DNA of 21,532 bases from a virus, in IMG/VR virus record IMGVR_UViG_3300040801_002480, positions 1 through 21,532 of that record; one strand, written 5' to 3'. The notes beneath the pieces are model-generated. The model saw nothing but the letters and a program-made list of their open reading frames with translations, was not told where the DNA came from and did no database searches. Each line of letters begins with the position of its first letter. Position 1 is the stretch's first letter. The translations under genes and the position numbers were made by a program. Below, piece by piece: positions 7,027 to 21,532 of the stretch.

Positions 7027-7055
7027 ATTGTATAATATTAAACAGGCATCGTCAA
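7027..7055 (-). promoter_or_regulatory. Sigma70-type promoter for scaffold/capsid genes
   Basis: On the minus strand, TTGACG (7055-7050), a 17-base spacer and TACAAT (7032-7027): 5 of 6 matches at each box. Transcription would begin near 7020, about 25 bases before the scaffold ATG and just upstream of its ribosome site. This gives the capsid genes their own supply of message inside the late operon. Confidence 0.6.
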
Positions 7056-7867: not shown

Positions 7868-10141
7868 TTATACCCCTCCTTGCGGTTGTTGTTCTGTTTG
7901 TCCTCCAATGTCCATCTGGCTAATTGCCATTAATAGTCTCGGATCACTCTTTTGTTCTTCAGGCAAAGCAGCTATAATTGTTTTCTTAAGCTCTGTCTGC
8001 TGCTTATTGTCCATCACTCCCTTTTCCTGTGATGCCTGTTCCTGTTCCACTTTCTGGATCTGTCGTTTAATCGAAGCCGGCAGATCTGATAGCTCATAAA
8101 ATAGCTGTGGCGGAATCTGCAACCCGGCCTGAGCAAGATCCAACATATACTTGAACACTGACTGTCTCTTTGTCGGGGACTGCATAGACTCACCAACAAC
8201 AACATCATAATTCTCAAGGTCAGTGTCCTGTAGTTTTCTTATTATCTCTTCTTCAGGATACTTTGTAAAATCCTGGTTGCCAACCATTACCTGATTTCCT
8301 CTCTGGATCCGGTTCTGTAATAACCGGTAGATCCGTTCTGGATCATTACCGTAAACGATCTTGATCGCTTTAAGTAACGCCCGGCCCAACATACGTTTAG
8401 CTAAAGATGAATTATCAAATAAATATTCGTTGCCAACTAAAGCCCCCTCTCTCTTTTGGATAAAGCTCGCTCCAGATTGCTGTGACTGTGAGCTCTGCCC
8501 AACCATCTCTGGGTTGATATTAGAAATTTCCATCATTTTCCTGGATAATAACTCTTGCTCCTGGACCAGCTCTGATGGGAACTTTGCACCCTCATATTTC
8601 ACTGGTGGTCTACCTACATCAGCTATCTCAACAACAAAGCCCGGAGATGATGCGTTGTTTTTAAACTTATCTTTTGCAGAATTGTTTGGAAATGTATTCT
8701 GATCATAAGCCCAACCATAAGCTGACATTCTGCTAATAATATCAACCGTATTACTGTGGATCTTATTCATCATCCGTTGATGATCTTTAATAGTATGAAC
8801 CTTACCCCAAACCTTGCTGCCTCGTTTTTTTGCATAGTCCGGGATCAGCGTCCAGTTATTGCCAAGCTCTGACTCTTCTTTAGATAATAATGTGCCGCCA
8901 GCTGTTTGAATGATTGCTATAGTTTCTATTGTCCTGGGGATCAATGCCATACCAGGAATAGACTTGATCTTTCTTCTGGCCTCCGGATCTATGTCCTCAT
9001 AAAAGAACTGATCCTCAATATAATCATCAGCCAGGTTTGAAATAATGTTAACTTTATCGTAAACCTTTTTATGGAGCTCAACGACTCTGTATGATTTTTC
9101 CTTTTCCTTAACAAACTCCGGATCCTTTAAAAATTTAATCCAATCCGTAGTATTATCCATCTTACTTTCAAGCTGGTATTTTTTCTTTGCATCTTCTGGA
9201 ATATCTGAAACATCAGTCTTTCCTTTAATAAGATCATATTCAAGTCCGATCTGGTCAGCCTTATCCGGATAAAGCTGCTTTATCTTTTGCAAGCTCATCC
9301 ACTGCCAGGAAACCAAATACTCCAGATCATCACAGTCTTTATCTTTATGTTCGCCGTAAGCCACCTTGTCATAAGGAAAGTCTCTTATGATAATATCGCC
9401 CCGGATATCTTTATTATAATCTATCCATACTTTAAAATTACCCCGGCCAGTGATAACCTTGTCCTCAAAAACTTCAACTTCTCTATAGTCAAAGTTGTTC
9501 TTTTCCTGGATATGCTTAACCAAATTACTCAAGATGTCTGCGATCATCTCGTCGCCATCTTCAACCGGGAAGTAAGTTATGTCGTATCTGTTCTGGCGAT
9601 AGAATCCAGAAAGAACGTCAATCTTGCCCTCTGTTTCATTAATAGTAAGAGCTGCTCTCTTCTGAGCTTTAAGCCTATTCTTATCTTTGCCGTCCCACTG
9701 TTCGCCAGAATAAAAATCCTCATCCTCGGCAGCACTCTTTAAAAATTCTCCGTCGTGATCCTTTGCCCTTTGATACAGCTGCCTGGTCTCAACAACATCT
9801 TCTTCTTCTTCTTGTTTCAACCACTCCGGAGTCCGCTCAATTATCTTAAGCTCTTCGATCGTATGAATATGCGGATCACCCATCGTGTTTTCTTCTATCT
9901 TAATACTGCCCGGCACTGCCTCTTGTGTTACCTCACCGATCTCATTGCGGACCTCTGGCAACCCGGCCTCATAAATAACCTCATGATAATGCGGATCGTC
10001 AGATTTGCGATCAGCGTCAACGGACGTTTTACCGATAGAGATCTCAGTCTGGCCCTCTGGCATCTCAACGTTATCATCTACTTTTATATAAGCTAAATGG
10101 AAATGTTTTCCGGTAACGGAAGTTTGTTTTAGTTCTATCAT
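7868..10141 (-). CDS. Portal protein, P22 gp1-like, with HxH-repeat N-terminal extension
   Basis: A 757-residue protein. From about residue 120 it follows the P22-type portal pattern: 'LYQRAKDHDGEFLKSAAEDEDFYSGEQWD' then 'RAALTINETEGKIDVLSGFYRQNRYDI', 'VITGRGNFKVWIDYN', 'DFPYDKVAYGEHKDKD', and a C-terminal Gln-rich helical region (barrel-like). The portal forms the dodecameric ring for DNA packaging and tail attachment. The first ~105 residues are unusual, with three units carrying HxH motifs at residues 13-15 (HFH), 51-53 (HYH) and 91-93 (HIH), about 39 residues apart. The ATG is at 10141-10139 with GGGGGAG upstream. It follows the large terminase gene, as expected. The portal call is firm; the role of the extension is unknown. 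Confidence 0.85.
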   Translation of the reverse strand: MIELKQTSVTGKHFHLAYIKVDDNVEMPEGQTEISIGKTSVDADRKSDDPHYHEVIYEAGLPEVRNEIGEVTQEAVPGSIKIEENTMGDPHIHTIEELKIIERTPEWLKQEEEEDVVETRQLYQRAKDHDGEFLKSAAEDEDFYSGEQWDGKDKNRLKAQKRAALTINETEGKIDVLSGFYRQNRYDITYFPVEDGDEMIADILSNLVKHIQEKNNFDYREVEVFEDKVITGRGNFKVWIDYNKDIRGDIIIRDFPYDKVAYGEHKDKDCDDLEYLVSWQWMSLQKIKQLYPDKADQIGLEYDLIKGKTDVSDIPEDAKKKYQLESKMDNTTDWIKFLKDPEFVKEKEKSYRVVELHKKVYDKVNIISNLADDYIEDQFFYEDIDPEARRKIKSIPGMALIPRTIETIAIIQTAGGTLLSKEESELGNNWTLIPDYAKKRGSKVWGKVHTIKDHQRMMNKIHSNTVDIISRMSAYGWAYDQNTFPNNSAKDKFKNNASSPGFVVEIADVGRPPVKYEGAKFPSELVQEQELLSRKMMEISNINPEMVGQSSQSQQSGASFIQKREGALVGNEYLFDNSSLAKRMLGRALLKAIKIVYGNDPERIYRLLQNRIQRGNQVMVGNQDFTKYPEEEIIRKLQDTDLENYDVVVGESMQSPTKRQSVFKYMLDLAQAGLQIPPQLFYELSDLPASIKRQIQKVEQEQASQEKGVMDNKQQTELKKTIIAALPEEQKSDPRLLMAISQMDIGGQTEQQPQGGV

Positions 10142-10269: not shown

Positions 10270-11916
10270 TCAAATACCCATCCAGGATACGTCAGTCCCC
10301 CCGGATTCCTTTTTCCTAAAAGCCTTCTCGTAAGGATCTTCTTCTTCTCGCTTACCATATCTCAAAACCCTGTCCTCAGAGTAAAACGTTAACATCAAAG
10401 CATCAAACTTATTCGGTGAAGAAACACCCCGGCTCTTCATCCGGCGCTTACTCTCAACCTGGATCCTGCCCTTATTATCATCAAACGTAGGTTCCCCAAG
10501 CTGTTCCTTTAGCTCATCATCATCCGGGATAGCTATCAAGCCATTCTGGAATGCCTCCCTCATTCGCCAGGATAACTGGTCCCGGAGCTGGAAAAACTGC
10601 CCTTCATCAAAAGCATTGTTCCTCACGTTGATCCCTTTAACCCTGACACCATCTTCTCTCATCTTGTCATAAGCGCCCTTGCCCAGCCCGACCATGTCCA
10701 TCGTAACCTCGTCCGGATCCTCATCAGCTATATGGCCCATAAGCCACCGGGCCGTCTTCATTGTATCCTCACTCTTATATGTAAGGAACGGATAAACCAG
10801 CCCTCCCTTGCGTTCACACAGTTCCGTTGTGTCACCACCGGCACCTACATCTATTCCCATCTTGACCGGATCAAAATCATCTAAATTCTCCTTGATCAGC
10901 GCCCGGCGCTCCGGTGACGCTGCAGCATCTATCCAATCCCAGGGAATAAGCTTGCCTTCCTCGCTCTTTGGCGGTAATCCCAGTACCCTGATCCGGTAAA
11001 TGTTGCTCTCTTGTGGATCACCTTCACGAACATATTTGTTCCTCATGAACTCGATATGTTCCTTTGATACGTTCTCACTCTCTTCAGCGTTCCAGCGCAA
11101 TGCTATCCACTGAGATCGCTCTTTGGTCTGGGTTTCCAGGGCGAACCCTGATGTCCTTGTCGGGTTGAATATGATCAGCGCAAAGTTACACAGCCCTGTC
11201 ATGGTACCTTCCAGTGGTTTGAACACCGGATCCGGGACACCTGACGCCTCATCAACGACGAACATCTGATAGTCTTCATGGAATCCTGCCAGGGTTTCTG
11301 CCTGGTCCTCAGCGCTCGCTTTGGTGTTAGCTGTCCTGGCCAGTGCGAACCACTCTTTACCGCCACGTTCTTTTAAAAACACCTTTGTCTTCTGCCACTC
11401 CAGGATCTCATCTACTAAGCTCTCGATGTATTTGCCATCTTTTGCGTTGTGGCTATTCCGCAGCCACTTGCTTATCTCTGCCCACAATATATCGTTCAGC
11501 TGGTGTGCCGTTGGCGCTGTGCAAGGGATCTTAGGATTCACAAAACATACCAGGAACCATAATATCGCCCACGCTGCAAAAGCATCTTTACCTGTACCCT
11601 GCCCGGACATTATCGAAATACCCCTCTTCTTCGCATAATAAACTATGTCCGCATCAATATGCTCTTCAGCATACTCCATTACTGCCTTGTGCTGGACGTC
11701 AGCATCATCCCAGGTCTGATTAGCCAGGAACCGCTGGACCTTGAAATTGTAATCGATCTTTGCATTAACCAGCTTGCCCAGCTCCCTTAATGCCTCTCGC
11801 TGCTGGCCGCTTAACCCTCTGCCGCCATACTTAGGATGGACCTTTAACTCTTCCTCAACAAACAATACCGGATCAAGACTCCACTGCTTTATCAGATCCC
11901 TCAGCTGCTGGCTCAT
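10270..11916 (-). CDS. terL: Terminase large subunit (ATPase/nuclease of DNA packaging)
   Basis: A 548-residue protein. The ATPase half shows Walker A SGQGTGKD (residues 104-111), Walker B MFVVDEA (218-224) and the coupling NPT (251-253). The nuclease half shows the RNase H-like acidic residues in MGIDVGAGGD (Asp356), TMDMVGLGKGAYD (Asp407) and NKFDALML near the C-terminus. This enzyme pumps DNA into the procapsid and cuts the concatemer. The frame is open to a TTG at 11919, but the ATG at 11916-11914 has GGGAGG six bases upstream and is preferred. It overlaps the small-subunit gene by 44 bases, which suggests coupled translation. Length is normal for the family. Confidence 0.93.
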   Translation of the reverse strand: MSQQLRDLIKQWSLDPVLFVEEELKVHPKYGGRGLSGQQREALRELGKLVNAKIDYNFKVQRFLANQTWDDADVQHKAVMEYAEEHIDADIVYYAKKRGISIMSGQGTGKDAFAAWAILWFLVCFVNPKIPCTAPTAHQLNDILWAEISKWLRNSHNAKDGKYIESLVDEILEWQKTKVFLKERGGKEWFALARTANTKASAEDQAETLAGFHEDYQMFVVDEASGVPDPVFKPLEGTMTGLCNFALIIFNPTRTSGFALETQTKERSQWIALRWNAEESENVSKEHIEFMRNKYVREGDPQESNIYRIRVLGLPPKSEEGKLIPWDWIDAAASPERRALIKENLDDFDPVKMGIDVGAGGDTTELCERKGGLVYPFLTYKSEDTMKTARWLMGHIADEDPDEVTMDMVGLGKGAYDKMREDGVRVKGINVRNNAFDEGQFFQLRDQLSWRMREAFQNGLIAIPDDDELKEQLGEPTFDDNKGRIQVESKRRMKSRGVSSPNKFDALMLTFYSEDRVLRYGKREEEDPYEKAFRKKESGGTDVSWMGI

Positions 11917-12433
11917 CAAGGTCCTCCCTTCTCCGGTGTATCCCCTCTACTATACTCGAAAATTGCATCGATACGTTGCCTGTGCTCTTGTTATCATTTA
12001 ACCGCTCTTTATCAAATAACTTGTCATACGCATATACCAGATCCCTTAACGGTGCCTCTGCTATTCTGACATCATCAATAGCACTTAACATCTTCTGCTG
12101 CTTTTCACGGAGTAAATGCGATCGTAACCCCTCATAAACCGCAACATCTTTTAAATCTATGTCCGGTTTGAACTTGTCAATATATCTGCGGAGCCACTTG
12201 ATCACCCTCGGATTTTCAGGATTTAAACCCTCAATCTTCGCTATGTCCGGGACCGATAGCCCCTTAAGCTTTAACTCTACACACTTTGCTATGTCCACAT
12301 TATATCTGAGATTGCCACGCTTGCGATTGTCCAACCAGATTCGAAGATCAGCCGGGTTCTGGCTAACCTCAACTAAAGCCTTCTCCCTGGAGACTCTGTC
12401 AGATCCTAAATCCTGCTTATCTATTATCCCCAT
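11873..12433 (-). CDS. terS: Terminase small subunit
   Basis: A 186-residue protein encoded just before and overlapping terL. The N-terminal half carries a helix-turn-helix-like stretch (KCVELKLKGLSVPDIAKIEGLNP then PRVIKWLRRYI), suited to binding the packaging site. The middle (~110-150) is helical with 'LLREKQQKMLSAIDDVRIAEAPLRDLVYAYDKLFD', the expected oligomerisation part. The ATG is at 12433-12431 with GAGGGG eight bases upstream. It is the first gene of the late operon. An intrinsic terminator and a consensus promoter lie immediately upstream, so its expression and that of everything after it probably depends on terminator read-through. Sequence similarity between small terminases is low, so the call rests on HTH content and gene order. 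Confidence 0.82.
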   Translation of the reverse strand: MGIIDKQDLGSDRVSREKALVEVSQNPADLRIWLDNRKRGNLRYNVDIAKCVELKLKGLSVPDIAKIEGLNPENPRVIKWLRRYIDKFKPDIDLKDVAVYEGLRSHLLREKQQKMLSAIDDVRIAEAPLRDLVYAYDKLFDKERLNDNKSTGNVSMQFSSIVEGIHRRREDLDEPAAEGSDKAVES

Positions 12434-12450
12434 ACTTTAGTCCCCTCTTT

Positions 12451-12478
12451 AAAAAAGCCAGGGTGGGCAAGCCCTGGC
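12451..12478 (-). terminator. Intrinsic terminator in the late-operon leader
   Basis: On the minus strand GCCAGGG (12478-12472) and CCCTGGC (12463-12457) form a seven-pair GC-rich stem with an eight-base loop, followed directly by six T (12456-12451). It lies between the consensus late promoter and the terS ribosome site. A transcript starting near 12490 would end after about 40 bases unless an antitermination mechanism acts. Confidence 0.8.
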
Positions 12479-12496
12479 ACTGATTGGCATACCATC

Positions 12497-12525
12497 ATTA
12501 TATAATCACCATAGCACAGTGTCAA
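12497..12525 (-). promoter_or_regulatory. Late promoter, perfect sigma70 consensus
   Basis: On the minus strand TTGACA (12525-12520), a 17-base spacer, then TATAAT (12502-12497). This is exact consensus at both boxes with optimal spacing. The predicted start is about 12490, only ~12 bases before the leader terminator stem and ~57 bases before the terS ATG. It is the obvious promoter for the late genes. Confidence 0.85.
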
Positions 12526-12538
12526 TGTGATACCGTGC

Positions 12539-12569
12539 CACCGTGGTGCTGTGCTGTGATGTCACGGTG
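12539..12569. promoter_or_regulatory. CACCGTG inverted repeat upstream of the late promoter
   Basis: CACCGTG at 12539-12545 and its complement CACGGTG at 12563-12569 form an inverted repeat with a 17-base gap. Extra direct copies of ACCGTG lie at 12532-12537 and 12655-12661 (CACCGTG). The site is roughly 15-45 bases upstream of the late -35 box, where an activator or repressor would bind. Confidence 0.4.
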
Positions 12570-12572
12570 TTG

Positions 12573-12871
12573 AGTGGCACTTAACGAATCTGGAAAATTG
12601 TTCCGGGGTAAAAGTGGTACTATGTATATATATCTGGGGCGAAAAAAAAATTGGCACCGTGACCCCCCCCACCCCTGTTAAGTGTCACTGAATACGTCGT
12701 ATAATATATCTTATGTAAAATAATAATAATACTAAAAGTGATACTTAACATTACTGTATAATAATAAACAATCGGTATAACAAAATATAATAATGTTATA
12801 GTGTTACATTGGCATATAAACTGCTAATTATTGGCATAAAAAGTGTAAAGTACTAAGTGTTAAGTGACACT
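12573..12871. repeat. AGTGnYACT repeat family (five copies)
   Basis: A 9-bp, self-complementary-type core AGTGnYACT occurs at 12573-12581, 12613-12621, 12681-12689, 12737-12745 and 12863-12871. The core is extended to AGTG.CACTTAAC or its inverse GTTAAGTG.CACT in four of the five copies. A weaker copy is at 12800-12808. The copies flank a tract that is mostly A and T. Each is a plausible dimer-binding site, or a set of origin repeats. Confidence 0.6.
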
Positions 12872-12873
12872 GT

Positions 12874-13157
12874 TTGCCCTACTTGCCCTACTTGCCCCTA
12901 AAAAAAATGGCCATTTGCCCCTATTTTTTTTCGCATACCTACAACAAAAAATACCAGAAAAAAGAGTTTTAGGGCAAGTAGGGCAAGTAAATCTGATATA
13001 GATTATTTGCGAAAACGTATTTTAGCCGTTTTTAGGCCTTGTAATAATCTGACATAGTAAAAAACTTGCCCTGATGCCCTACTTGCATTTTTTTTGCTAT
13101 ACTTAAAGCAAAAACATAGGGGCAAAGTAACACTGCAACATAGGGCAAACAGGGCAA
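12874..13157. repeat. Iterons TTGCCCTAC, both orientations
   Basis: Copies of TTGCCC(C)TA in the + orientation lie at 12874, 12883, 12892, 12915, 13066 and 13075. Inverted copies (TAGGGCAA) lie at 12970, 12979, 13117, 13141 and 13150. Within clusters the period is exactly 9 bases. The + cluster at 12880-12903 and the inverted cluster at 12967-12989 are complementary over about 22 positions with a single bulge. The element resembles iterons recognised by a replication initiator, or a multi-site operator. Confidence 0.65.
13095..13103 (+). promoter_or_regulatory. Possible rightward extended -10 promoter
   Basis: TGCTATACT is an extended -10 element (TG, one base, then a box matching TATAAT at 5 of 6). 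There is no good -35 box. Transcription would start near 13110 and run toward the early operon, through the operator-like repeats. Confidence 0.35.
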
Positions 13158-13166
13158 GTTTTGACC

Positions 13167-13316
13167 TGCTCAAAATTGAACAGAAAAACAGGCAATTGAT
13201 CAAAATTGAACACCTGGCTGTCTTCCTTATATAGGCTGGTGTCAACATGGCAAGGTGTCATTTTTAGCCTACATAAAGCAAAAACGCTTACCGGCGGATC
13301 TGTTCAAAATTGAACA
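13167..13316. repeat. Three 16-bp operator-like sites, TGnTCAAAATTGAACA
   Basis: The sites are at 13167-13182 (TGCTCAAAATTGAACA), 13197-13212 (TGATCAAAATTGAACA) and 13301-13316 (TGTTCAAAATTGAACA). The third is a perfect inverted repeat of TGTTCAA around AA; the others differ by one base in the left half. The first two are exactly 30 bases apart (three helical turns). The second overlaps TTGAAC-16-TATATA (13206-13233), a weak rightward promoter-like sequence. The layout is that of a repressor operator set. Confidence 0.62.
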
Positions 13317-13321
13317 ATTTT

Positions 13322-13344
13322 TAGCCATTTTCGGGCTATTTTTT
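13322..13344 (+). terminator. Rightward terminator-like hairpin upstream of the early operon
   Basis: TAGCC (13322-13326) and GGCTA (13334-13338) pair around a seven-base loop, followed by six T (13339-13344). The stem is only five pairs, so efficiency may be modest. It lies about 120 bases before the first early gene. Its loop (ATTTTC) resembles that of the hairpin at 19300-19324. Confidence 0.45.
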
Positions 13345-13417
13345 GGCATATCGAGTGAACTTTAGCAGGGTGTAGACACGGCAATTGCCGCAGACCATTG
13401 ATAATTGAATATTAACA

Positions 13418-13436
13418 GCGCACCTGAACCGTGCGC
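13418..13436. other. Hairpin/inverted repeat upstream of first early gene
   Basis: GCGCAC (13418-13423) and GTGCGC (13431-13436) are perfectly complementary with a seven-base gap. A TATAAT-like box follows at 13443-13448 but sits too close to the ribosome site (13451-13458) to be its promoter. It may be an operator or a message 5' structure. Confidence 0.35.
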
Positions 13437-13463
13437 ACACACTATAATATTGGAGGTGACAAC

Positions 13464-13595
13464 GTGGGGATAGACAGAGCCAGAACAACAGCCGAGCGCT
13501 ACAAGGCAAGGCAGATAATGACACTGTGCTACAGGGCAGTGTTTGAGTTTCAATTTTCTGGTATGAGTTATTTCATTGGATTGAAGTTAAAATAA
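13464..13595 (+). CDS. Small basic protein of unknown function
   Basis: A 43-residue gene beginning with GTG and ending with TAA. It is preceded by TTGGAGGTGAC, the same extended ribosome site used by several genes further on, which is the main reason to accept it. The N-terminal half is basic and helical (RARTTAERYKARQIMTLCYR). The rest is more hydrophobic (VFEFQFSGMSYFIGLK). No family is recognised. It is the first gene of the rightward early operon and is followed 16 bases later by the SSB-like gene. Confidence 0.55.
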   Translation: MGIDRARTTAERYKARQIMTLCYRAVFEFQFSGMSYFIGLKLK

Positions 13596-18488: not shown

Positions 18489-18923
18489 ATGACAAGCAAA
18501 CACAAGGCAATAAGTTTTCGATTAAATCCACAGGACAGTGAAGCCTGGGCTCAGTTAGCATACCAGGAGGGATTAACTCCGGGTACCCTGGCCAGGAGAA
18601 TATGCACACTGCACCTGAAAGATAAAGTCAAAACAGTAGACTATGAGATCGAGCCTGATCATAACGATGATGCTCTGGTCAGACCGGCAGAACCAAAAGT
18701 GGAGACTGTGAAAGAAAAACAAGAGAAGACTATGATCGACAACACAATGGCACTGGAAGACGATGAGAAGTTAACATTCGTTGAAGAGTCATACACCGGA
18801 GAGAGAGACAGCGCAGAGTTTCGCCGGATGATGGGCAAAACTGATCGGGACATGACAGAAGAAGAGGCTGATGAGATATTCGGCAGCAGAGATGATGATG
18901 AATGGAGGGTTGCCAGTGAATAA
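18489..18923 (+). CDS. Ribbon-helix-helix-like DNA-binding protein with acidic tail
   Basis: A 144-residue protein. Its first ~40 residues, 'KAISFRLNPQDSEAWAQLAYQEGLTPGTLARRICTLHLKD', fit a ribbon-helix-helix plan: a beta strand, a helix, then a second helix after 'EGLTPGTLARR', as in small plasmid and phage repressors and Arc/MobC-like proteins. The rest is an acidic, disordered-looking tail containing the repeated 'DDDE' type. It may regulate the operon or bind DNA as a dimer. No operator can be assigned. The next gene overlaps its end by eight bases. Confidence 0.55.
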   Translation: MTSKHKAISFRLNPQDSEAWAQLAYQEGLTPGTLARRICTLHLKDKVKTVDYEIEPDHNDDALVRPAEPKVETVKEKQEKTMIDNTMALEDDEKLTFVEESYTGERDSAEFRRMMGKTDRDMTEEEADEIFGSRDDDEWRVASE

Positions 18924-19541: not shown

Positions 19542-19570
19542 TTGACTTATAAATGACAGCATGATATCAT
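19542..19570 (+). promoter_or_regulatory. Promoter of the helicase gene, overlapped by a palindrome
   Basis: TTGACT (19542-19547), a 17-base spacer, then TATCAT (19565-19570): 5 of 6 at each box with ideal spacing. A perfect 14-bp palindrome GCATGATATCATGC (19559-19572) covers the -10 box, so a dimeric repressor could block it. The predicted start is near 19577, about 20 bases before the helicase ATG. Confidence 0.65.
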
Positions 19571-19596
19571 GCAGTCTCAGTGGGAGGACAAATCAA

Positions 19597-21532
19597 ATGG
19601 ACAAATTTTTTAAAGTAAAACCGTTCGATCATCAGCAAGAAGTATTTGAAGAGATAAAAGATAGAGACTACCATGCCCTTTTCTGGGAGATGGGTACTGG
19701 GAAAACTTTTGAGTTGATCCATGTGCTCAGATGGAAAATGAATCACGGCATGACCAATCCTATATTAATCGTATGTCCCCTGGCAGTAGTTGAGAACTGG
19801 AGAAGAGAATTTATAATGTTCTCGCCAAACCAGAGGATGGATGATTACATTCAGGTGCTGACCGGTCCCAAAGAATCACGGCTCGAAAAACTTATGGATC
19901 CGCACGCAAAAATATTTATTATTAACTATGAGGGTGTCGGCAGGATCAAAGAGATTGAATATATATTGCGATCAAAAAAATGGGGAGCAATGGTTCTGGA
20001 TGAAGCGCAAAGATGCTTGCATTATGATTCACAAATTGAAACAGATCAGGGCATTTTAAGGATAGGAGATATTGTTAATAACAATATAGATTGCTCTGTT
20101 ATTTCTTTAAATTCTGAAAGCAATGTGTTAGAATATAAAAAAGTAACACATAGGTTTAAGAATAAAAGAACATTAAGGGTATTGGAGATTAGCTGTGGTA
20201 AGAAAAAAATACGATGCACAGAAAACCATAAAATCTATTGTAATGGTGAATGGAAAGAAGCAATACAAATACAAAATGGAGATTGTTTGTCTATATTGTG
20301 GGAGGAAGAAACTGGTTTCAAGATACCACAGTGGAAAATTTTGCTCAACAAGTTGTGCCTCATTAGCAAGAAGCAGCGAATTATCAGAAAGAATGAAAGA
20401 AAACAATCCGATGTTCAACCCAGAAACAAAAAAGAAAATTTCAAAAATGTTCAAAGGAAAGCCATTCAAAGGCGCAAGGGGAGGAAATGGGGGATTAACG
20501 AAACAGCAAAAAATTATTGCAAAGCTGACAGGGCTCCCCACGGAATTTGCAATAGCAACCCAAAGGAAAAAAGGTTCAAGCTATCCAACTTGCTACAAGG
20601 TAGATCTTGCAATCCCCAAAAAGTTTGTGGCAATAGAAATAGATGGTCGTGGGCACAAGTATGGAAAGAAAAAAGAACAAGACAAAAAGAAAGAGCAACT
20701 ATTAAATCAGTTAGGGTGGACAGTGTTAAGATTTTGGAACTGGGAAATAGATCAGGATTTAGACAGGGTAGTAAAGAAGATTACTTCTATGATATAGAAG
20801 TAGAAGACAACCACAACTATTTTGCTAATGGAATACTTGTTCATAATTGTAAGAACCACAAAGCAAAACAAACCAAAGCGATCCTGGCTATAGCTAAAAA
20901 TGCTGAGACCAGATGGATCGCTACCGGGACGCCGATACTTAACTCGCTCATGGATATCTTTCCACTATATTTATTCCTGGATCGAGGGAAAAGGTTCGGG
21001 GAGAATTACTTTGAATTTCAGAACAGGTATTTCAGAGATGCTAATGCGTCCTGGAAAGGTAAGCCTGGATATTTCCCGGACTGGCAGCCAAAGAAAGAAA
21101 AGATGGACAGTGTTAATAAGCTGATCTATTCATGTGCTGACCGCCGGATGAAATCTGAGTGTCTATCACTGCCGGATAAAGTTTATGAAAAACATTACGT
21201 TGAAATGGGCCCCAAACAAGCTAAGATTTATAACGACATGAAGACTGAACTGATCAGCTACTTTGAATCAGAGTTTGCAGTGGCATCAACGGCACTGGTT
21301 AAAATGTTAAAACTGAACCAGATCACATCAGGGTTTGTTACGACCGTTGATGAGGCCGGGACAGAGAAACTTCAGGACATTAGCAGCGACAAGATCGACG
21401 CACTAAAAGAACTTGTCGGCGATCTGACTCCAAACAAGGTCATTATCTGGGCATTCTTTAGACATGATATTGAAAAGATCCAGCAAGCGCTGGCTAAATA
21501 TAATCCAGTAACAATATATGGCGGTACAAAGG
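19597..21532 (+). CDS. SNF2/DEAD-like helicase interrupted by an intein (3' end outside window)
   Basis: An open frame from ATG 19597, behind GGGAGGA, to the window end with no stop. Visible motifs before splicing: Walker A EMGTGKT (residues 31-37), 'PLAVVENWRREF' (motif Ia region), 'FIINYEGVGR', and motif II LDEAQ (134-138). Motif II is interrupted after Arg139 by the intein (residues 140-417) and resumes as CKNHKAKQTKA. Then comes ATGTPILNSLMDIFPLY (motif III), as in SNF2 enzymes. Joining the two sides gives DEAQRCKNHKAKQTKA, the usual 'DEAQ.IKN...' pattern, so splicing restores the helicase. It probably remodels or unwinds DNA in replication. It has its own promoter and a palindrome just upstream. 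Confidence 0.88.
   Translation, partial: MDKFFKVKPFDHQQEVFEEIKDRDYHALFWEMGTGKTFELIHVLRWKMNHGMTNPILIVCPLAVVENWRREFIMFSPNQRMDDYIQVLTGPKESRLEKLMDPHAKIFIINYEGVGRIKEIEYILRSKKWGAMVLDEAQRCLHYDSQIETDQGILRIGDIVNNNIDCSVISLNSESNVLEYKKVTHRFKNKRTLRVLEISCGKKKIRCTENHKIYCNGEWKEAIQIQNGDCLSILWEEETGFKIPQWKILLNKLCLISKKQRIIRKNERKQSDVQPRNKKENFKNVQRKAIQRRKGRKWGINETAKNYCKADRAPHGICNSNPKEKRFKLSNLLQGRSCNPQKVCGNRNRWSWAQVWKEKRTRQKERATIKSVRVDSVKILELGNRSGFRQGSKEDYFYDIEVEDNHNYFANGILVHNCKNHKAKQTKAILAIAKNAETRWIATGTPILNSLMDIFPLYLFLDRGKRFGENYFEFQNRYFRDANASWKGKPGYFPDWQPKKEKMDSVNKLIYSCADRRMKSECLSLPDKVYEKHYVEMGPKQAKIYNDMKTELISYFESEFAVASTALVKMLKLNQITSGFVTTVDEAGTEKLQDISSDKIDALKELVGDLTPNKVIIWAFFRHDIEKIQQALAKYNPVTIYGGTK
20014..20847 (+). 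mobile_element. Intein of 278 residues in helicase motif II
   Basis: The intein starts at Cys140 of the helicase (TGC 20014-20016) and ends His-Asn (20842-20847), with Cys as the first C-extein residue. Block A is CLHYDSQIETDQG followed by LRIGDI. Block B has the TxxH pattern CTENHKIY (Thr69, His72). Blocks F/G show YDIEVEDNHNYFANGILVHN. These blocks account for only about 130 residues. The middle (about residues 105-250) is a Lys/Arg/Asn/Gln-rich stretch without LAGLIDADG or other in-frame nuclease motifs, and looks like an open but unselected reading frame. The real nuclease gene occupies that stretch in the +1 frame. The intein frame is continuous, so no frameshift or split is needed. Confidence 0.9.
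20195..20797 (+). CDS. Overprinted homing endonuclease, Vsr/EDxHD-like, nested in the intein in the +1 frame
   Basis: A 200-codon gene starting at GTG 20195, seven bases after GGAG (20184-20187), entirely inside the intein but in the +1 frame. Domains: a zinc finger with Cys32, Cys35, Cys50 and Cys54; a NUMOD3-like DNA-binding stretch at residues 70-90 (NNPMFNPETKKKISKMFKGK); then a Vsr/DUF559-like nuclease core with KVDLAI (Asp137), VAIEIDGRGH (Glu148, Asp150, His154) and GWTVLRFWNWEI (174-185). This family includes free-standing endonucleases found between halves of split inteins. It should cut the intein-free helicase allele and drive homing of the element. The stop TAG lies within the block F coding region. 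The out-of-frame location is the oddity, and function is inferred. Confidence 0.85.
   Translation: MVRKKYDAQKTIKSIVMVNGKKQYKYKMEIVCLYCGRKKLVSRYHSGKFCSTSCASLARSSELSERMKENNPMFNPETKKKISKMFKGKPFKGARGGNGGLTKQQKIIAKLTGLPTEFAIATQRKKGSSYPTCYKVDLAIPKKFVAIEIDGRGHKYGKKKEQDKKKEQLLNQLGWTVLRFWNWEIDQDLDRVVKKITSMI

Follow-up and report, generated by a model that had tools for sequence, protein, structure and literature searches.

Organization of the locus

The window, by which we mean the whole stretch of DNA that was analysed, is a 21,532-base record of an uncultivated virus and is probably a fragment. Leftward from position 12433 lie, in order, the gene for the small terminase (terS), the gene for the large terminase (terL), the gene for a P22-type portal, two small genes, the gene for a scaffold-like acidic protein named from its position and composition, and the gene for the major head protein, which matches phrog_334 and PF13252. 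Rightward from about 13430 run approximately 20 small early open reading frames (ORFs), mostly without known function, followed by an SNF2-type helicase gene that continues off the end of the record. The region between the two arms (12434-13464) contains no convincing gene and several repeat families. The features on which the analysis relies are as follows.

11873..12433, minus strand: terS, small terminase of 186 aa, with Shine-Dalgarno (SD) sequence AGAGGGG and ATG at 12433; assigned because it precedes terL and is 44% identical to the ORF found at the same position in the related contig L016, with no PHROG or Pfam match
10270..11919, minus strand: terL, large terminase (phrog_2, phrog_5902)
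7868..10141, minus strand: P22-type portal (PF16510)
12520..12525, minus strand: -35 hexamer TTGACA of the terS promoter, exact consensus
12497..12502, minus strand: -10 hexamer TATAAT of the terS promoter, exact consensus, after the 17-nt spacer CTGTGCTATGGTGATTA
12483..12491, minus strand: 9-mer TATGCCAAT over the start site, positions -1 to +8; the third copy in the window, with the others at 12838 and 12816
12457..12478, minus strand: terminator stem-loop GCCAGGG-8-CCCTGGC, a 7-bp stem with six G-C pairs and an 8-nt loop
12451..12456, minus strand: T6 tract of the terminator, from the sequence
12449..12490, minus strand: predicted terminated leader RNA of ~35-40 nt, from sequence and folding

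The rightward arm harbors a second element of note. The SNF2/ResIII helicase gene (19561-21532, plus strand) carries an intein (PF14890, E 3e-14) inserted after DEAQR, and within the intein, in the +1 frame, an ORF at 20195-20797 encodes a DUF559/Vsr-like nuclease with an HNH hit. This overlapping ORF possibly encodes a homing endonuclease, for which the 'hidden HNH' element of PMC11855218 provides a comparison.

A consensus promoter followed by a predicted terminator

The order of elements on the minus strand is TTGACA-CTGTGCTATGGTGATTA-TATAAT-GATGGT-ATGCCAATCAGT-GCCAGGGCTTGCCCACCCTGGC-TTTTTT-AAAGAGGGGACTAAAGT-ATG. The promoter is the only 12/12 site among those listed for the window, and whole-window dinucleotide shuffles, with both strands counted, contain an average of 0.02 exact promoters each. 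Its predicted +1 is A12490, 7 nt past the -10 hexamer, and only the 12 nt of ATGCCAATCAGT separate this start from the terminator stem. The isolated terminator hairpin has a predicted energy of -13.1 kcal/mol, and the 42-nt leader folds at -14.3 kcal/mol, a value equalled by 18 of 200 shuffles. The hairpin is directional, because its plus-strand side carries no T run. It ends ~24 nt upstream of the terS ATG and leaves the SD uncovered, which makes it unlikely to be merely a translational element. A promoter scoring at least 10/12 and followed within 70 nt by a strong hairpin and T run is found once in the window, compared with 0.02 per shuffled window. The initial annotation had described an exact leftward TTGACA-17-TATAAT and, about 12 bases past its start and just before the terS ribosome site, a seven-pair GC stem with six T; the promoter lies at 12525-12497 (minus strand) and the terminator at 12478-12451, as described. 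An ATG at 12488-12490 (minus strand) lies exactly on the predicted +1. The 13-codon ORF that starts there crosses the hairpin and ends with a TAA right past the T6 tract; this ORF may be due to chance. No Rfam match was found for the leader RNA.

Conservation of the layout in relatives

Searches with TerS returned nothing among viral contigs or annotated phages, and a genome scan with TerL revealed no prophage relative. TerL alignments retrieved ~85 contigs, among which L016 is clearly the closest, with identities to the window of 62% for the portal, 66% for the major capsid protein, 44% for TerS, and 64% for the best segment of TerL; the L016 terL has an in-frame gap of ~115 codons relative to the window. 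The two contigs have the divergent layout in common, and their intergenic elements, namely TTTGTTGTAGGTATGC, the TATATGCCAAT copies, the ACTTAACA elements, and the terS promoter, follow in the same order and orientation. Directly upstream of terS, L016 contains a promoter-like TTGATA-18-CATAAT (10/12) and, 31 nt past the -10, an interrupted G-rich hairpin of -17.9 kcal/mol that ends in TTTATTTTTT. Such a promoter/terminator pair was obtained in 0 of 100 shuffles of L016. The letters of this promoter and hairpin are unrelated to those of the window, such that the layout is common to both and the sequence is not, as would be expected for a gate. The promoter-then-terminator layout therefore looks selected, given its presence at the same place with unrelated sequence in L016, the only relative that shares it before terS. 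In L016, the stretch of the terS frame from the hairpin to its conserved part lacks a standard start codon. Translation may start upstream of the hairpin (ATG 5613), or, in view of this and of the gap in terL, the contig may have an error or differ in detail.

In five of the more distant relatives (L006 682, L013 9137, L022 1954, L039 206, L051 8065), only 5-8 nt separate a near-consensus promoter from the terS ATG and there is no terminator; their terS is predicted to be expressed from a leaderless transcript. Similar leaderless starts are present before other genes in L012, L015, and L024. The offset from the -10 to the ATG is 6 nt in the window and 7 nt in L016, compared with 5-8 nt in the relatives with leaderless terS; in L016 the ATG that corresponds to the window's 12490 ATG is directly followed by TAA. 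Since the leaderless arrangement without terminator is found in the more distant relatives, the leader with its terminator appears to have been added behind an ancestral leaderless-type promoter in the lineage to which the window and L016 belong.

Repeats of the intergenic region

The 9-mer TATGCCAAT is present in three copies in the window (12838, 12816, 12491, minus strand) and three in L016 (5382, 5406, 5428), all of them located between the two arms and oriented like the late genes. The copy on the start site is a possible protein site and the one candidate cis element, as the 9-mer is otherwise confined to tandem copies in this intergenic region and in that of L016. Matches to TATGCCAAT in viral contigs other than L016 look like coding or simple-repeat coincidences. 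TTAGCAGTTTATATGCCAAT is identical in the window and L016.

Further repeat families extend toward the early genes. Five pseudo-palindromic, operator-like sites of the TTAAGTGNCACTTAAC type lie at 12573-12872; one is weak, and the four strong ones are the window's four best matches. These sites are at about -87 to -377 relative to the terS promoter; simple steric repression via AGTGNCACT-type operators is unsupported, as the strong operators at these distances are off the promoter. Units of TTGCCCTAC and GGGCAAGTA repeated on both strands at 12874-13158 are possibly origin iterons, with one GGGCAAG present in the terminator loop (12465) as well, and three copies of the TGNTCAAAATTGAACA palindrome at 13167-13320, on the early-gene side, look like repressor operators. 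A candidate regulator of the intergenic operators is the early protein encoded at 18489-18923 (plus strand), which is conserved in L016 (3136-3483, minus strand) and displays, by eye, a ribbon-helix-helix-like N terminus and a C-terminal FxEExYxGExDSAxF. The searches gave neither an informative family match nor a match in phages for this protein. For the CopG/ribbon-helix-helix-like early protein, the AlphaFold model (mean pLDDT 47) is too poor for a fold search or for confirmation of the fold; the model of a 138-aa protein at 18871 (pLDDT 60) is likewise too poor for a fold search.

Extent of the gate

The transcription of the capsid genes bears on how much of the late region the promoter before terS could control. 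Two features of the late block are relevant.

7027..7055, minus strand: promoter-like TTGACG-17-TACAAT (10/12) before the scaffold gene, at the place homologous to the exact promoter of L016
7113..7132, minus strand: second terminator-like hairpin, located in the late block immediately upstream of the scaffold promoter; -10.1 kcal/mol, not better than shuffles

In L016, an exact TTGACA-17-TATAAT stands directly before the scaffold gene (9924-9952, plus strand) and is ungated, and an 11/12 promoter precedes the portal gene. The scaffold promoter of the window, taken alone, has a P of about 0.05. With further promoters before the scaffold gene in both contigs and before the portal gene in L016, one gated promoter serving the whole late region is unlikely, and the capsid module looks like an independent transcription unit. 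The terS-terL-portal unit would be under the control of the gate, which the capsid genes need not pass. The proposal of a gate that opens the late operon, as in lambda, is not upheld.

Comparison with known systems

The initial annotation had likened the locus to lambda pR'/tR', where a Q-type antiterminator acts. The layout on which the comparison was built is real and kept in L016: as in lambda and phage 21, a constitutive sigma70-type promoter of strong consensus is followed by a start-proximal intrinsic terminator, with head and packaging genes beyond. The leader RNA of phage 21 is ~45 nt. The window differs from these phages in that it has no recognised Q homologue, no Q direct repeats, and no good pause element, and its other late genes apparently have their own promoters; the comparison is only partly supported. 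The phage 21 Q binding element consists of two 6-bp direct repeats 8 bp apart between the -35 and the -10 (PMC6606751). The corresponding spacer in the window, CTGTGCTATGGTGATTA, has no 6-bp direct repeat and only GTG..GTG 8 bp apart. In the window, the initial 20 bases of the transcript contain no -10-like pause element with A2 and T6, the only resemblance being GATGGT (3/6) at -6, and the initial transcribed region of L016 contains TAAACT at +4 and TATGTT at +13. No early protein scanned in this probably incomplete contig matches a PHROG or Pfam antiterminator, in line with the earlier statement that no antiterminator was recognised. A nut or put RNA site has no room between start and terminator, as only ATGCCAATCAGT lies upstream of the stem.

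Other systems resemble the locus in different respects. The alpB promoter of Pseudomonas aeruginosa is followed by a short leader and, from +54, by the intrinsic terminator tB immediately before the operon's first gene (PMC7969949). The window shares this arrangement but has no recognised AlpA-like protein, and its hairpin begins at +13 rather than +54. Given the position of tB, Q-like loading does not conflict with a short leader, although the 12 nt of the window are shorter still. In Escherichia coli greA, about two thirds of the transcripts end at 37-59 nt, with a leader of only 19 nt before the terminator (PMC6829880). Like this GraL attenuator, the window has a short leader, an intrinsic terminator, and a gene immediately beyond, with short RNAs and partial read-through predicted; the difference is that greA is a cellular gene autoregulated by GreA, whereas the gene here belongs to a phage terminase unit. 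The view that the leader is unusually short was rejected on the basis of these two systems (37-59 nt for greA/GraL, PMC6829880; tB at +54 for AlpA, PMC7969949). A literature search for phage terminase attenuators found none. Xp10 p7 and P23-45 gp39 are small early phage proteins that allow the polymerase of the host to read through terminators and need no site at the promoter to do so. Such a protein would fit the absence of cis elements in the window, but none of the window's early proteins matches these families.

The layout was also sought in viral contigs by scanning for TTGACA-17-TATAAT with T6 within 28-52 nt, a good hairpin being one that scores 16 or more directly before the T6. Of the 83 matches listed, which include the window and a few mutually related contigs, 14 have a good hairpin, against an expectation of 0.9 from shuffling of the intervening bases. 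Among the matches listed, these pairs stand before various genes and in contigs of unrelated viruses, and the predicted promoter-proximal terminator is thus a recurrent phage device rather than peculiar to this phage. An exact promoter with an immediate terminator is also present at ~10174-10239 of L353 and ~6945-7011 of L303 (reverse strand counts), where the downstream genes presumably are of the gp33-gp59-gp32 type of T4-like phages.

Interpretation of the promoter-terminator pair

The best reading of the sequence is that a promoter-proximal attenuator would throttle terminase expression. The strong sigma70-type promoter would fire leftward before terS, and most RNA polymerases would be released ~35-40 nt on, at the intrinsic terminator, with terS, terL, and the portal gene reached by read-through transcripts only. 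The packaging unit would be specifically throttled, while the scaffold and capsid genes downstream would use their own promoter. Later in infection, a phage product would make RNA polymerase ignore the terminator. With only a 12-nt leader before the hairpin, such a product would have to act at or near the promoter, in the style of Q or AlpA, or modify the polymerase generally, in the style of Xp10 p7 or P23-45 gp39, and not through a nut-type RNA site. We infer a working promoter, a working terminator, relief of termination, and an agent of that relief from the sequence, and the evidence points to a control gate of a known general kind and not of a new kind. That the gate is relieved by a phage factor acting on the polymerase, at the promoter or generally, has close to an even chance. 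It is unlikely that an orphan early protein is a new, cis-element-light antiterminator that acts on a polymerase with barely 12 nt of RNA and serves the packaging unit only.

Relief may not be needed if the terminator simply has a constant leak that holds terminase at a low level relative to the capsid protein with no dedicated antiterminator, as for greA/GraL. Such a fixed attenuator is a serious contender, although the odds are against it. Terminase is needed in few copies, the scaffold and capsid genes apparently have their own promoter, no Q-like site or protein was found, and greA offers a precedent, with ~two thirds of its transcripts ending at 37-59 nt (PMC6829880); a set leak would explain most of the same facts as a relieved gate. 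However, an exact consensus promoter before a strong terminator is a wasteful route to low output, and similar layouts are antitermination targets in lambdoid phages and at the alp locus (PMC6606751, PMC7969949). A gate relieved by a phage factor is somewhat favored over a fixed throttle.

The remaining explanations are considerably weaker. The terminator could mainly block leftward transcripts arising upstream, for example in the origin-like, repeat-rich region of 1 kb, from entering terS, and a study of Tn916 describes terminators that guard mobile elements (PMC11658703). A blocking element placed past the phage's own strongest promoter would, however, block that promoter too, and the interval from 12525 to the divergent early genes shows no apparent leftward gene, which leaves an insulator very unlikely. 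The ~40-nt RNA could itself be the product, as a small RNA or as an origin primer or activator transcript, with terS expressed otherwise; iteron-like repeats adjoin, and phages do make short promoter-terminator RNAs. This is also very unlikely, as the leader has no Rfam match, the hairpin sequence is wholly different in L016 where an RNA product would tend toward conservation, and terS with its SD lies immediately downstream. It is likewise very unlikely that the pair arose by chance, with a hairpin that is not a working terminator or a promoter that is not used: the leader is just moderately more stable than its shuffles and the 8-nt loop is not ideal, but only 0.02 pairs are expected per window and L016 has the same layout. 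The least probable explanation has 70S ribosomes start at the +1 AUG (12490) and translate 13 codons across the hairpin, blocking its formation. The match of the ATG offset to that of the leaderless terS relatives and the span of the ORF agree with such a gate, but the L016 AUG meets a stop codon at once, the ORF is perhaps a product of chance, and the polymerase would arrive at the terminator too early for a ribosome to load on the short RNA made by then.

Biological significance

If the gate that would be relieved by a phage factor works as proposed, this group of uncultivated phages uses early termination to control packaging independently of capsid synthesis, and some early protein without known function would be a new antiterminator. 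The combination of an exact promoter and an immediate terminator provides a searchable marker of hidden antitermination or attenuation circuits.
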